Shown: positions 1-4,204 of the stretch, in pieces
Numbering within the stretch: position 1 is the stretch's first letter
Layout: the number at the start of each line of letters is the position of its first letter
Assembly (NCBI GenBank): GCA_024236215.1
Contig: JACKKX010000002.1
Coordinates: 682,001-746,000, forward strand
Length of the DNA stretch: 64,000 nt
Source of the DNA: Novosphingobium sp.
GTDB taxonomy: Bacteria; Pseudomonadota; Alphaproteobacteria; Sphingomonadales; Sphingomonadaceae
Direction: 5' to 3'
The notes under the pieces: generated by a model
Told to the model about the DNA's origin: nothing
Seen by the model: only the letters and a program-made list of their open reading frames with translations
The model's database searches: none
Translations under genes and position numbers: made by a program

Positions 1-603
1 GATGCAGCGCATGTCGCGCGGCTTTTCGCCGCCAGGCTCGACGATATCGATGCCGGGTTCGGGATCGAACTGGCGCGGCTGGCCGTTCCGTGGAGCGAGC
101 CGCTGCCGCTCAGCCAGCGCGATCTCGATGCTGCGGCCGAGGCGCATGGCACCTCGCTTTTCGCCTGTATCGATCGGCTGGCGACGCGGCTGGGCGAGCA
201 GGCGGTGCGGCGCCCTGTGCCCCAGGCCAGCCATGTGCCGGAACGCGCTCAGCACTGGGTGCCCCCGCTTGTTCCCGGGATTCCGGGCCAGAAGCAGCCC
301 GACTTCCAGACCCGCCCCTTGAAACTGCTCGACCGGGCAGAGCCGATCGCGGTGCTCCACGCCAGCCCCGATGGGTTGCCGCATCGTTTTCGCTGGCGCG
401 GCGAGGTTCACGAGATCGCCCGCGCCGAAGGGCCCGAGCGGATCGCCCCCGAATGGTGGCGCGAGCGCTCGGGTACGCGGCTGCGCGACTATTACCGGGT
501 CGAGGACAGGGCAGGGCGGCGCTACTGGATCTACCGTGCCGGGCTGGTGGACGACGGACGCGGCGGCATACCCGAATGGTTTCTCCAGGGGCTCTATGCC
601 TGA
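1..603 (+). CDS. imuB: ImuB, Y-family DNA polymerase-like protein, C-terminal part (cut by window edge)
   Basis: The reading frame is open from base 1 and ends at TGA 601-603, so only about 200 C-terminal residues are present and the catalytic-like core lies outside the window. The tail with its closing Trp/Tyr-rich segment (EWW, RDYYRV, YWIYRAGL, PEWFLQGLYA) is typical of ImuB. In known systems ImuB is a catalytically inactive Y-family homologue that links ImuA and DnaE2 to the beta clamp during SOS mutagenesis. The dnaE2 start codon at 596 overlaps the end of this gene, which implies translational coupling. The identification rests on the tail plus the dnaE2 neighbour. Confidence 0.85.
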   Translation, partial: DAAHVARLFAARLDDIDAGFGIELARLAVPWSEPLPLSQRDLDAAAEAHGTSLFACIDRLATRLGEQAVRRPVPQASHVPERAQHWVPPLVPGIPGQKQPDFQTRPLKLLDRAEPIAVLHASPDGLPHRFRWRGEVHEIARAEGPERIAPEWWRERSGTRLRDYYRVEDRAGRRYWIYRAGLVDDGRGGIPEWFLQGLYA

Positions 604-3600
604 AGCCCCGCTCACCCCGCCGCGCCGCCATGGCGGTGGCGCGCATCTGCAGCCGCCGCGGCCCGCGCCGTTCGTCGAGCTTGGGCTGGTGAGCTGCTTT
701 TCCTTTCTGCGCGGGGCTTCGGATGCGGTGGATCTGGCCGCGCGTGCCAGGGCGCTGGGTTACGATGCGCTGGGGATCGCCGATGCCAACAGTCTGGCCG
801 GGGTGGTGCGGCTCCACAGCGAGGCGCGGGCGCTGGGGCTGCGCCCGGTGATCGGTTGCCGGATCGAGACTGCCGAGGGGCTGGAATTCCTGGCCTATCC
901 TGCCGACCGCGCCGCTTATGGCCGCCTCAGCCGCCTGATCTCGGCCGGGCGGATGGCGACGCTGGAGGGCGCGTGGCAGGACAAGGGCGTCTGCGACATC
1001 TCGCTCGCCATGCTGGCCGGGCACAGCGAGGGCGTGCACCTGGTGCTGGTGCCGCCGCGCGATCTGGAAGCGCAGTTCACCATCGCGGGGACGGGCAATG
1101 TTGTTGCGCTCGATGGCTCCCGGCGCGAGCAGGCTCTGCAAGCCCCGCTTTCCGGGCTTCTCCCGCATCTTGCCGCCCGGCTTCCCACGCTGCGCCACCT
1201 TGCCGCGAGCTATCTCTACAGCGGGGACGATCTGGCCCGGATCAACGCGCTCGATGCCCTGGCGCGACAGCATGGCCTGGCGATCCTTGCGACCAACCTG
1301 CCGCTCTATCATGCCCCCCAGCGCCGCCCCTTGCACGACGTGATGACGGCGATCCGCCACAAGACCACCGTTGCCGCAGCCGGGCATCTGCTTGAGGGCA
1401 ATGCCGAGCGGCATCTCAAGGGGCCGGAGGAGATGGTGCGGCTGTTCGCGGCTTGGCCACACGCGCTGGAAGCGGCCCGGAATCTGGCGGATTCGTGCCA
1501 TTTCAGCCTTGAGGAACTGCGCTACGAATATCCCCGCCAGACCTATCCCGACGGGCTCGATGCGCAGGGCTATCTTACCCGGCTGACCTGGGAAGGGGCC
1601 ACAGGGCACTATCCGCACGGGGTGCCCGAAGAGGTTGCCGCGACGCTGCGCAAGGAACTGGCGTTGATCGGCCGGAAAAACCTCGCGCAGTACTTTCTGA
1701 CTATCAAGGAAGTGGTTGATTTTGCGCGCGGTCGTGTGCCGCCGATCCTGTGTCAGGGGCGCGGCAGCGCGGCCAATTCGGCGGTCTGCTTTTGCCTTGG
1801 GATCACCTCGGTCAACCCGGTCGAGCATGCCCTGCTGTTCGAGCGGTTCATTTCCGAGGACCGCGACGAACCCCCTGATATCGATGTCGATTTCGAGCAC
1901 GAGCGGCGCGAGGAGGTGATCCAGCACATCTATGAAAAGTATGGCCGCCACCGCGCCGGACTCTGCGCCACGGTGATTCACTACCGCCCGCGCATGGCGA
2001 TCCGCGAGGTCGGCAAGGCGATGGGGCTGTCCGAGGACGTGACCGCAGCCCTGGCGAAAACTGTCTGGGGCGGGCACGGCAGGTCGATCAACGAGCACCA
2101 CATAGGCACTGAAACGGGGCTCGATGCTACCCAACCGCACCTCAAACGCGTTCTAGTGCTGACTGAGCAGATGATCGGCATGCCCCGCCACCTTTCGCAG
2201 CACGTCGGCGGCTTCATCCTCACCGAAGGACCGTTGATCGAGACCGTCCCGATCGGCAACGGCGCCATGCCCGACCGCAGCTTCATCGAGTGGGACAAGG
2301 ACGACATCGATGCGCTCGGCATCCTCAAGGTCGATGTCCTGGCGCTGGGTATGCTGACCTGCATCCGCAAGTGTCTTGACCTGCTGCGCCAGCACCACGG
2401 CCGCGATCTGGTGCTGGCCAGCGTCCCGCGCGAGGACCCGGCGGTTTATGACATGCTGTGCCGGGGGGATTCGCTGGGTGTGTTCCAGGTCGAAAGCCGG
2501 GCGCAGATGAACATGCTCCCCCGTCTGCGCCCGCGCTGCTTCTACGATCTGGTGATCGAGGTGGCGATCGTGCGGCCCGGGCCAATCCAGGGCGATATGG
2601 TTCACCCCTACCTCAAACGGCGGCGCGGAGCCGAGCGGGTGGAGATCCCCGCACCGGGTCCGGCCCACGGCCCGCCCGACGAGCTGACCAGCATCCTTGG
2701 CCGCACGCTGGGGGTGCCGATCTTTCAGGAACAGGCAATGAAGATCGCGCTCGACGCGGCGAAATTCTCGAGCGCCGAGGCCAACCGGCTGAGGAAGGCG
2801 ATGGCGACCTTCCGCAGCCGCGGGAACCTTGAGGAACTGGAGGGTCTGATGGTCGGACGGATGGTTGCGCGCGGCTACGATCCGGAATTTTCCGCGCGCT
2901 GCTTCAACCAGATCAAGGGGTTCGGCGAATACGGTTTTCCTGAAAGCCATGCCGCCAGCTTCGCGCTGCTGGTCTATGTTTCATCGTGGCTGAAATGCCA
3001 CTATCCGGCGGCCTTCGCTGCGGCCCTGCTCAATTCGCAGCCGATGGGCTTCTATGCCCCGGCCCAGATCGTGCGCGATGCGAGGGAGCATGGGGTGGCG
3101 GTGCTGCCGGTGGACGTGAACGCCAGCGGCTGGGACAATGGGCTGGAGGAGGGTGGCTCACGCGGAGACGCGGAGACGCGGAGAAAGGAAGAAGAAAAAG
3201 GATTCTCACGCAAAGGCGCAAAGACGCAAAGAGGCGGTGCTGCGCCGCAGGCATTTCTTTCACTTTCAAACGGGTCAGCTGGATCGCGGATGGAATCGAA
3301 AGCGGCTGCGCCGCAAATCGAACCTCTTTGCGTCTTTGCGTCTTTGCGTGAACCAAATCCTTCTTCCCTCCGCGCCTCCGCGCCTCCGCGCGAACCAGAG
3401 CTCGCCCTGCGCCTCGGCCTGCGCCAGGTCGATGGCTTCCCCGAGGCCGCTGCTGCCCGGATCGTCGCCGCGCGCGAGGCGGGCGGGCCGTTTCGCGATG
3501 TGCGCGAACTCAAGGAACGGGCCGGGCTTTCTCCGGCGCTGGTCGAGCGGCTGGCGAGCGCGGATTGCTTCAATTCGCTTGATCTCACCCGCAGGCAGGC

Positions 3601-4204
3601 GCTGTGGGATGCGCGCAGCCTGATCTCCGCGCCCGAGCTGCCGCTGTTCGCGGCGATGCGCCAGCGCGGTGAGGGGGCAGAGCCCACCGCCACCCGTCTT
3701 CCAGTCATGCCGCTGTCCGAGGAAGTGGTGGCCGATTACCAGACCCAGCGGCTGTCGCTGAGGGCCCATCCGCTCGCCTTCCTGCGCGCCGATCTGGCCG
3801 ATCGCGGCTTTATCCGCGCGGCCGATCTGCGCCAGCGCAAGTATCGCTCAAGCGTGCAGGTCGCGGGCGTGGTACTGATCCGCCAGCGCCCGGGCAGCGC
3901 CAAGGGGGTGTGTTTCATCACGCTGGAGGACGAAAGCGGGGTGGTCAATCTGGTGGTCTGGCCCGACGTGATGGAGCGCCAGCGCAAGGTAATCATGGGC
4001 GCACGGCTGATCGAGGTGAGGGGCCGGGTGGAATACGACGACGAGGTGATCCACGTCATCGCCCAGCAGCTGACCGATGCGACGCCATCGCTGCGCGCCC
4101 TGTCAGACGACCTGCTCGCCCCGGCGGTGGACCGCGCCGACCACGTAGCTCGCGGTCATCCCCGCAGCACCCGCGTGATTCCGAAATCGCGGGATTTTCA
4201 TTAG
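596..4204 (+). CDS. dnaE2: Error-prone DNA polymerase DnaE2 (ImuC) with an internal in-frame repeat insertion
   Basis: This 1202-residue C-family polymerase starts at ATG 596, overlapping the imuB stop. The N-terminal PHP domain (about residues 20-270, FVELGLVSCFSFLRGASDA), the polymerase core with PPDIDVDFEHERREE and GRGSAANSAVCFCLGI, the helix-hairpin-helix region (LRLGLRQVDGFPEA) and the C-terminal OB fold (VQVAGVVLIRQRPGSAKG) are all recognisable. The family carries out translesion synthesis with ImuA/ImuB under LexA control; any LexA site lies outside the window. Residues of about 853-934 (bases 3152-3397) are not polymerase-like. They are encoded by a nested inverted-repeat element that keeps the frame open. 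Whether the polymerase is still active cannot be judged from sequence. Confidence 0.95.
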   Translation: MPEAPLTPPRRHGGGAHLQPPRPAPFVELGLVSCFSFLRGASDAVDLAARARALGYDALGIADANSLAGVVRLHSEARALGLRPVIGCRIETAEGLEFLAYPADRAAYGRLSRLISAGRMATLEGAWQDKGVCDISLAMLAGHSEGVHLVLVPPRDLEAQFTIAGTGNVVALDGSRREQALQAPLSGLLPHLAARLPTLRHLAASYLYSGDDLARINALDALARQHGLAILATNLPLYHAPQRRPLHDVMTAIRHKTTVAAAGHLLEGNAERHLKGPEEMVRLFAAWPHALEAARNLADSCHFSLEELRYEYPRQTYPDGLDAQGYLTRLTWEGATGHYPHGVPEEVAATLRKELALIGRKNLAQYFLTIKEVVDFARGRVPPILCQGRGSAANSAVCFCLGITSVNPVEHALLFERFISEDRDEPPDIDVDFEHERREEVIQHIYEKYGRHRAGLCATVIHYRPRMAIREVGKAMGLSEDVTAALAKTVWGGHGRSINEHHIGTETGLDATQPHLKRVLVLTEQMIGMPRHLSQHVGGFILTEGPLIETVPIGNGAMPDRSFIEWDKDDIDALGILKVDVLALGMLTCIRKCLDLLRQHHGRDLVLASVPREDPAVYDMLCRGDSLGVFQVESRAQMNMLPRLRPRCFYDLVIEVAIVRPGPIQGDMVHPYLKRRRGAERVEIPAPGPAHGPPDELTSILGRTLGVPIFQEQAMKIALDAAKFSSAEANRLRKAMATFRSRGNLEELEGLMVGRMVARGYDPEFSARCFNQIKGFGEYGFPESHAASFALLVYVSSWLKCHYPAAFAAALLNSQPMGFYAPAQIVRDAREHGVAVLPVDVNASGWDNGLEEGGSRGDAETRRKEEEKGFSRKGAKTQRGGAAPQAFLSLSNGSAGSRMESKAAAPQIEPLCVFASLREPNPSSLRASAPPREPELALRLGLRQVDGFPEAAAARIVAAREAGGPFRDVRELKERAGLSPALVERLASADCFNSLDLTRRQALWDARSLISAPELPLFAAMRQRGEGAEPTATRLPVMPLSEEVVADYQTQRLSLRAHPLAFLRADLADRGFIRAADLRQRKYRSSVQVAGVVLIRQRPGSAKGVCFITLEDESGVVNLVVWPDVMERQRKVIMGARLIEVRGRVEYDDEVIHVIAQQLTDATPSLRALSDDLLAPAVDRADHVARGHPRSTRVIPKSRDFH
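3152..3397. repeat. Nested inverted-repeat element inserted in frame within dnaE2
   Basis: About 246 bp (82 codons, a multiple of three) with two nested pairs of inverted arms. The outer arms are built on an ACGCGGAG unit (left about 3154-3187, right to 3396 as CCTCCGCG units). The inner arms are built on an ACGCAAAG unit (left 3203-3234, right 3323-3354 as CTTTGCGT units). Each arm has three or so tandem 8-mer copies. Similar ACGCAAAG/ACGCGGAG repeats are dispersed in many bacterial genomes, usually between genes. Here the element is translated as a low-complexity Arg/Lys/Ser/Ala-rich peptide between the polymerase fingers region and the helix-hairpin-helix domain. Confidence 0.9.

Follow-up and report, generated by a model that had tools for sequence, protein, structure and literature searches.

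The dnaE2 locus and its insert

The window analyzed here is a stretch of 64,000 nucleotides from Novosphingobium sp., and the gene of interest in it is dnaE2 (imuC). The following features were located:

596..4204, plus strand: dnaE2 (imuC), an error-prone DNA polymerase with an in-frame insert (open reading frame and family match)
3149..3397, plus strand: the whole insert as measured against insert-free relatives, 249 nt or 83 codons, between GLE and ELALR
3160..3184, plus strand: outer 5' arm, 3.1 copies of ACGCGGAG (tandem-repeat search)
3206..3351, plus strand: inner nested element, arm-to-arm 140 by pattern (modal length class of copies in other genomes)
3206..3234, plus strand: inner 5' arm, ACGCAAAG type (inverted- and tandem-repeat search)
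3323..3351, plus strand: inner 3' arm, inverted, 97% complementary to 3206-3234 over 29 nt
3367..3391, plus strand: outer 3' arm, 3.1 copies of CCTCCGCG, inverted (tandem-repeat search)

The dnaE2 frame is open from 371 to 4204 on the plus strand with a likely start at 596, and the product gives a full-length match to the NCBIfam family 'error-prone DNA polymerase' (PRK05672.1, 1368.5 bits). Upstream of it lie an ImuB-like open reading frame (ORF), with Pfam IMS above the cut-off, and an ORF with a weak ImuA match below the cut-off. The genome carrying this dnaE2 is 3.08 Mb.

A sequence-only reading of the window had described a nested palindrome translated in frame inside an intact dnaE2, and this description was confirmed. 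The insert has 8-bp tandem arms and, by comparison with insert-free relatives, spans 249 nt at 3149-3397; the 246 nt at 3152-3397 given at first were one codon short. The tandem 8-mers of the inner arm occupy 3208-3232 and their inverted counterparts 3325-3349, with the outer inverted set at 3367-3391. The nesting of the arms is real, but the outer pairing is imperfect, since the 3' outer arm is of the GCGCGGAG type and produces mismatches. The insert is a composite, with one palindromic element nested in another.

Allowing up to two mismatches, the ACGCAAAG-type and ACGCGGAG-type arm patterns each match the window four times, a count reached in 0 of 100 shuffles for the former and 1 of 100 for the latter. 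The RNA fold of 3144-3403 has a predicted energy of -150.8 kcal/mol compared to -95.4 +/- 5.1 for shuffles (z -10.85; 0 of 200 as good). No Rfam family was matched by 3000-3600 at E values up to 1, and the arm sequences were not found in the open-licence literature searched.

The placement of the insert before the helix-hairpin-helix domain was correct, with the refinement that the two touch. The Pfam HHH_6 match starts at residue 923 (frame counted from 590), inside the last residues of the insert (854-936), and the insert therefore directly abuts the HHH_6 domain. By sequence, the insertion site corresponds approximately to residues 821-832 of E. coli Pol III alpha. Structure modeling, which had been proposed along with the first reading, was carried out with AlphaFold (61 sequences; mean pLDDT 67.6, pTM 0.46) and returned the insert as a low-confidence stretch between two hairpin strands. 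The short strands 264-267 and 351-354 flank residues 270-346 at pLDDT below 50, and the helix-hairpin-helix region after the insert reaches a pLDDT of about 95. In this model, the insert reads as a probably disordered loop on the tip of a beta-hairpin before the helix-hairpin-helix domain.

Occupancy of the hairpin among relatives

A total of 150 dnaE2 loci were compared: 80 from genome contigs, 30 from a genus search and 40 from fetched regions. Both flanks of the hairpin are present in 148 of them, with L090 and L128 having no left flank, and in all 148 the hairpin gap is a multiple of three and free of stops. The gap measures at least 60 nt, 9 nt of which are native, in 46 of 134 distinct loci, and is below 60 nt in the other 88. 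Of the 46 long gaps, 32 contain an inverted repeat that scores at the shuffle floor (1 in 61); among 46 length-matched stretches downstream, taken as controls, 2 do. The sequence-only reading had allowed that most orthologues might carry an insertion lacking the inverted repeat; the majority were found to have short gaps, and most of the longer loops are palindromic. The orthologue alignment that it had suggested showed no insert in close relatives of the window: L028, L030 and L034 read GLE-DG-ALR or ALE-DG-ALR. Its notion of a single recent, strain-specific event is not supported: in many other sphingomonad dnaE2 genes this hairpin also holds an insert, from one or another of several repeat families.

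These families were first labeled by eye. All-against-all blastn of the 46 inserts bore out family A (18 inserts), family B (8), family C (3) and family E (3), each of which forms one connected group with no between-group match at E 1e-3. The remainder are two singletons, L061 and L074, and 12 unclassed inserts, one of which is joined to a B insert by a single blastn match. A family D composed of L061 and L074 was rejected because the two loci do not match each other by blastn. Family A has the 8-bp tandem arms, family B reads CTCCCC...GGGGAGG and family E is CGTC-REP-like by eye. In this survey, inserts at the one hairpin occur in many lineages and come from several repeat families without mutual match. 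At the four loci L084, L085, L103 and L121, which come from non-sphingomonads or unplaced bacteria, the hairpin has 123-237 nt and no significant palindrome.

When filled and empty sister sites were compared by eye, no clean target duplication was seen, and neighboring codons also differ. At the left junction of L023, L040, L054, L060 and L067, the TLE codons seem to be repeated (TLE-xLE) just before the element, which might be a trace of insertion. In L076 and L031 the loops are short and by eye look like what is left when the two ends of an A-type and of a B-type element are joined; they are possibly deletion scars.

Along 67 full-length DnaE2 sequences, inserts of at least 30 residues occur at the hairpin in 23 and at three further sites, once each. 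A second insertion site, at reference position 266 in the N-terminal part, is used in 9 of the 67; the dnaE2 of the window has no insert there. Family-A and other repeats lie in frame at this second site (L054, L057, L073, L049 and L060), and those of family A have the same frame by eye. DnaE1, examined as a control, showed no insert in the 89 of 99 genomes with a near-full-length match among the matches listed; all of these matches span 1017-1050 nt, with at most about 7 extra residues. A class sample of 190 genomes, nearly all from other families, serves only to bound inserts there, as several of its dnaE2 matches are split and it was measured among the matches listed: the one-piece matches have at most about 22 extra residues, and a split match in G220 implies roughly 50-60.

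Copies of the repeats elsewhere

The sequence-only reading had held that such repeats are normally intergenic and had suggested a genome search for other copies. The search was run, and ACGCGGAG-type arms were found at three further places in the same genome, all between ORFs as read. The copy at L129 adjoins a methionine-aminopeptidase-like ORF, that at L130 lies between sufD- and sufC-like ORFs and that at L131 between regulator-like and carboxylase-like ORFs (gene names read from translations). The L130 copy (L130:465-529; C3:53060-53128 of the genome) is a compact tail-to-tail arm pair. Exact ACGCAAAG-type arm pairs occur only in the dnaE2 insert, and one-mismatch matches number five versus 4 for the reversed control.

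Among 64 clusters listed outside dnaE2 in seven genomes, 50 have no spanning reading frame with 150 nt on each side, a test that counted only frames open through the element for at least 150 nt each way and so misses broken genes and elements at gene ends. Pfam domains were found in 4 of all 19 spanning frames, always on one side, and none of the 64 clusters lies in frame between two Pfam-recognized gene parts among the matches listed, although genes without a Pfam family could be missed by this test, L222 being the doubtful case. L222:324-2123 is a long ORF without a Pfam match, and a family-A element may form its C-terminal tail.

The family-A triple-arm pattern was found in 34 of 99 genus genomes (reversed control, 4) and family B in 69 of 99. 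Of the 13 genomes searched, the family-C pattern matched exactly those three that carry a C insert (16, 59 and 9 times), leaving the other 10 without a match. For family E, 11 of 14 genomes matched, the E carriers with 13, 20 and 37 matches and the other 11 genomes with 0-14. The L061 motif occurs in 12 of 13 genomes, with 15 matches in the genome of L061 and 110 in G297, the genome of L054, which is rich in this motif yet has a family-A insert in its hairpin. The innermost family-A arm pairs fall into the modal class of 140-144 nt in 13 of 45 cases, including the inner element of the window (140). Their arms co-vary: the 5' arm and the reverse complement of the 3' arm are 83.4% identical, compared to 75.7 +/- 1.1% and a maximum of 79.4% in 2000 re-pairings of 40 pairs.

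As for arrangement, G037, G085, G088 and G059 contain 74-161 matches each to the family-B palindrome, and many of the places listed (for example in G037) are inverted pairs about 110-120 nt apart. Family C, in the genomes of L058, L055 and L059, forms mostly inverted pairs with starts 37-41 nt apart and is narrowly spread, with none in the other genomes of the 13 searched.

A, B, C and E, the families that occupy the hairpin, are also dispersed through the genomes of their carriers. Carrier status covers 67 of the 99 genus genomes, and these genomes are related, so the following p-values are too small: 9 of 10 A carriers have A copies elsewhere versus 17 of 57 other genomes (Mann-Whitney p 7e-5, after subtraction of 4 dnaE2 matches), and B carriers have more B copies elsewhere than others (4 versus 63 genomes, p 9e-4). 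Counter to a simple dose rule, the dnaE2 copies examined from G007 (81 A matches) and G063 (39) are divergent ones whose hairpin is empty.

A Y1 transposase was rejected as a necessary mover of family A, being present in 13 of 34 genomes with the family versus 16 of 65 without (99 genomes, Fisher p 0.17). No Y1_Tnp (PF01797) gene was detected at E 0.001 in the genome of the window or in the element-rich G007, G063 and G037. Two plasmid records match at 70-76% identity, neither with 80% cover nor with an annotated feature under the match.

Reading frame, repeated change and selection

Among 16 family-A inserts at the hairpin, 15 share one phase of the first 5' arm and all 16 share one phase of the last 3' arm; the phase of inner, nested arms varies. 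Five family-A inserts at the second DnaE2 site have the same reading by eye. L063 is read in another frame, and perhaps L124, a doubtful A member at the second site, is likewise. In 32 intergenic A copies, the three phases are about equally open (27, 31 and 24 of 64 readings) and the lengths are spread over the three remainders as 13, 11 and 8. The one-frame end arms at the hairpin reflect either a constant junction or a preferred peptide. A purely neutral permissive site does not predict them unless the junction is constant.

On a flank tree built without the insert, family A requires 14 changes, at least 8 of which are forced by starred branches. The tree was made by a quick method, with 46 of 131 inner branches weakly supported, and parsimony on it does not separate gain from loss. 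The five family labels together require 27 changes, where counts using label D rest on two unrelated inserts and the 12 unclassed inserts were omitted from two counts. The inserts are not all independent events. L022, at 168 nt, has an insert that its sister L028, at 9 nt, does not, at a dS of 0.25.

The polymerase around the insert is under purifying selection, with a flank dN/dS of about 0.06-0.12 in 8 pairs; the ninth pair, L028/L030, was dropped since it had been compared without alignment and was visibly misaligned. Together with the open frame in all 148 loci, this low ratio makes it doubtful that the insert abolishes activity, an outcome that the sequence-only reading had considered. 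The amino-acid sequence of the insert itself is poorly constrained in the two usable pairs, which are those with at least 85% identity among many: pN/pS is about 1.1 for L062/L065 (8 changes in total) versus about 0.10 for the flanks, and 0.57 for L025/L026 versus about 0.15. L039/L062, at 84% identity, gives about 0.8.

Discussion

These data are best explained by dispersed palindromes that repeatedly enter one permissive DnaE2 loop, where the in-frame cases survive; we put the probability of this reading at roughly 0.8. The repeats would insert widely in the genome, and most insertions inside genes would be lost, a loss that is presumed rather than observed. The DnaE2 hairpin would be one of few internal gene sites that tolerate a stop-free, hydrophilic and probably disordered stretch, and insertions there could accumulate, nest, erode to scars and be replaced. 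Speaking against this reading, the search for a mobilizing enzyme, which covered PF01797 only, found none, and inspection by eye revealed no clean target duplication. The one-frame end arms, the empty hairpins of the A-rich G007 and G063, and G297, rich in one family yet carrying another, weigh against it too.

Another possible explanation is that the long, basic, disordered loop is kept because it changes DnaE2, through partner binding, processivity or mutagenesis. Many separate gains at one site would fit this idea, as would the end arms that share a frame at the hairpin with no such bias in intergenic copies, the five second-site family-A inserts that read alike by eye and the speculation, printed in the text of a 2013 paper, about a mutator role of REP-tagged repair proteins (PMC3733652). 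Nevertheless, we regard it as unlikely, since the peptide is weakly constrained in the two usable pairs, the loop is filled by families with different peptides, 88 of 134 loci do without an insert, occupancy goes with element abundance in the genome, and the frame differs in L063 and perhaps in the second-site insert of L124. A more specific version, to which we give similarly little weight, has the hairpin as a landing pad that captures unrelated palindromes, the commonest family in its preferred frame (SRxxAE... / ...LRE) supplying a disordered basic arm that tunes damage-induced mutagenesis. If true, non-coding repeats would have become part of a protein convergently in many lineages.

Focus might also lie in the insertion itself rather than in survival, if the moving machinery favors a DNA feature near the CTGGAG codons. 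The left ends of family A do start in a single phase, no more than a few codons from the conserved GAG. That several mutually non-matching families use the same place, that inserts also occur at a second DnaE2 site of different sequence and that no clean target duplication is seen by eye all make such a preference improbable. A single ancient insertion, inherited vertically and followed by losses and divergence, would account for the inserts shared by the neighboring pairs L062/L065 and L025/L026. It is very unlikely, given that the families differ between lineages and do not match, and that carriers are nested among empty relatives with at least 8 family-A changes forced. An assembly error or a dead gene can practically be dismissed, since comparable in-frame inserts occur in many separately sequenced genomes, both isolates and MAGs, and the gene has a low dN/dS and a full-length family match.

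Comparison with known systems

The likeness to Rickettsia palindromic elements (RPEs) drawn by the sequence-only reading is apt. As described in the text of PMC2229807, which reviews RPEs and other translated repeats, RPEs are palindromic repeats about 105-146 bp long that have an open frame and become in-frame parts of conserved proteins; one studied product (gmk) kept its activity with an altered substrate affinity. The repeat in the window is also translated in frame inside a conserved protein. The difference is that for RPEs 19 reading frames, in different genes, are reported, whereas here several families occupy one hairpin of one gene. Residence in frame in many ORFs was not seen: the three other places in the genome of the window lie between ORFs, and 0 of the 64 clusters listed in seven genomes showed it. 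Bacterial MITEs and ERIC (RU-1) are likewise described as short elements with inverted repeats, capable of in-frame translation inside genes (texts of PMC2759123 and PMC2229807). Dispersed family-A copies share terminal inverted repeats with MITEs; by eye no clean target duplication was seen, and, with PF01797 the only family searched, no parent transposon was identified.

The nearest precedent is intragenic REPs of the GTAG/CGTC families. According to the text of PMC3733652, many of them lie in DNA-repair genes, with DnaE2 named, some clusters code for 43-82 residues, and insertions at the same site were noted in Xanthomonas recB. Palindromic repeats inside repair genes, DnaE2 included, are thus common to both cases. 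Family A differs in its 8-bp tandem arms and in its unit length of about 140 bp, compared to 20-40 bp for REPs, in showing no terminal GTAG/CGTC tag by eye and in being present in genomes where no Y1 transposase was detected. Family E, which fills the same hairpin, is the one that by eye has a CGTC-REP-like look. The distinction from the published REP-tagged DnaE2 is drawn from that paper's text, the species and positions of those cases being given in a figure and supplement.

Translated palindromes in Rickettsia and REP-tagged DnaE2 are already published, as the texts of these papers state. The convergence of several repeat families on one DnaE2 hairpin appears to be new; the texts found in the open-licence literature contained no report of it, and PMC3733652 comes nearest. 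Such convergence shows a route from non-coding repeats to protein sequence, and permissive protein sites can be read off genomes in this way. Different repeats have occupied a single loop again and again, and several of these cases have an empty sister species next to them; together they form a replicated natural experiment. It makes testable the suggestion printed in 2013 for REP-tagged proteins, namely that repeat insertions in repair polymerases change the mutation rate.
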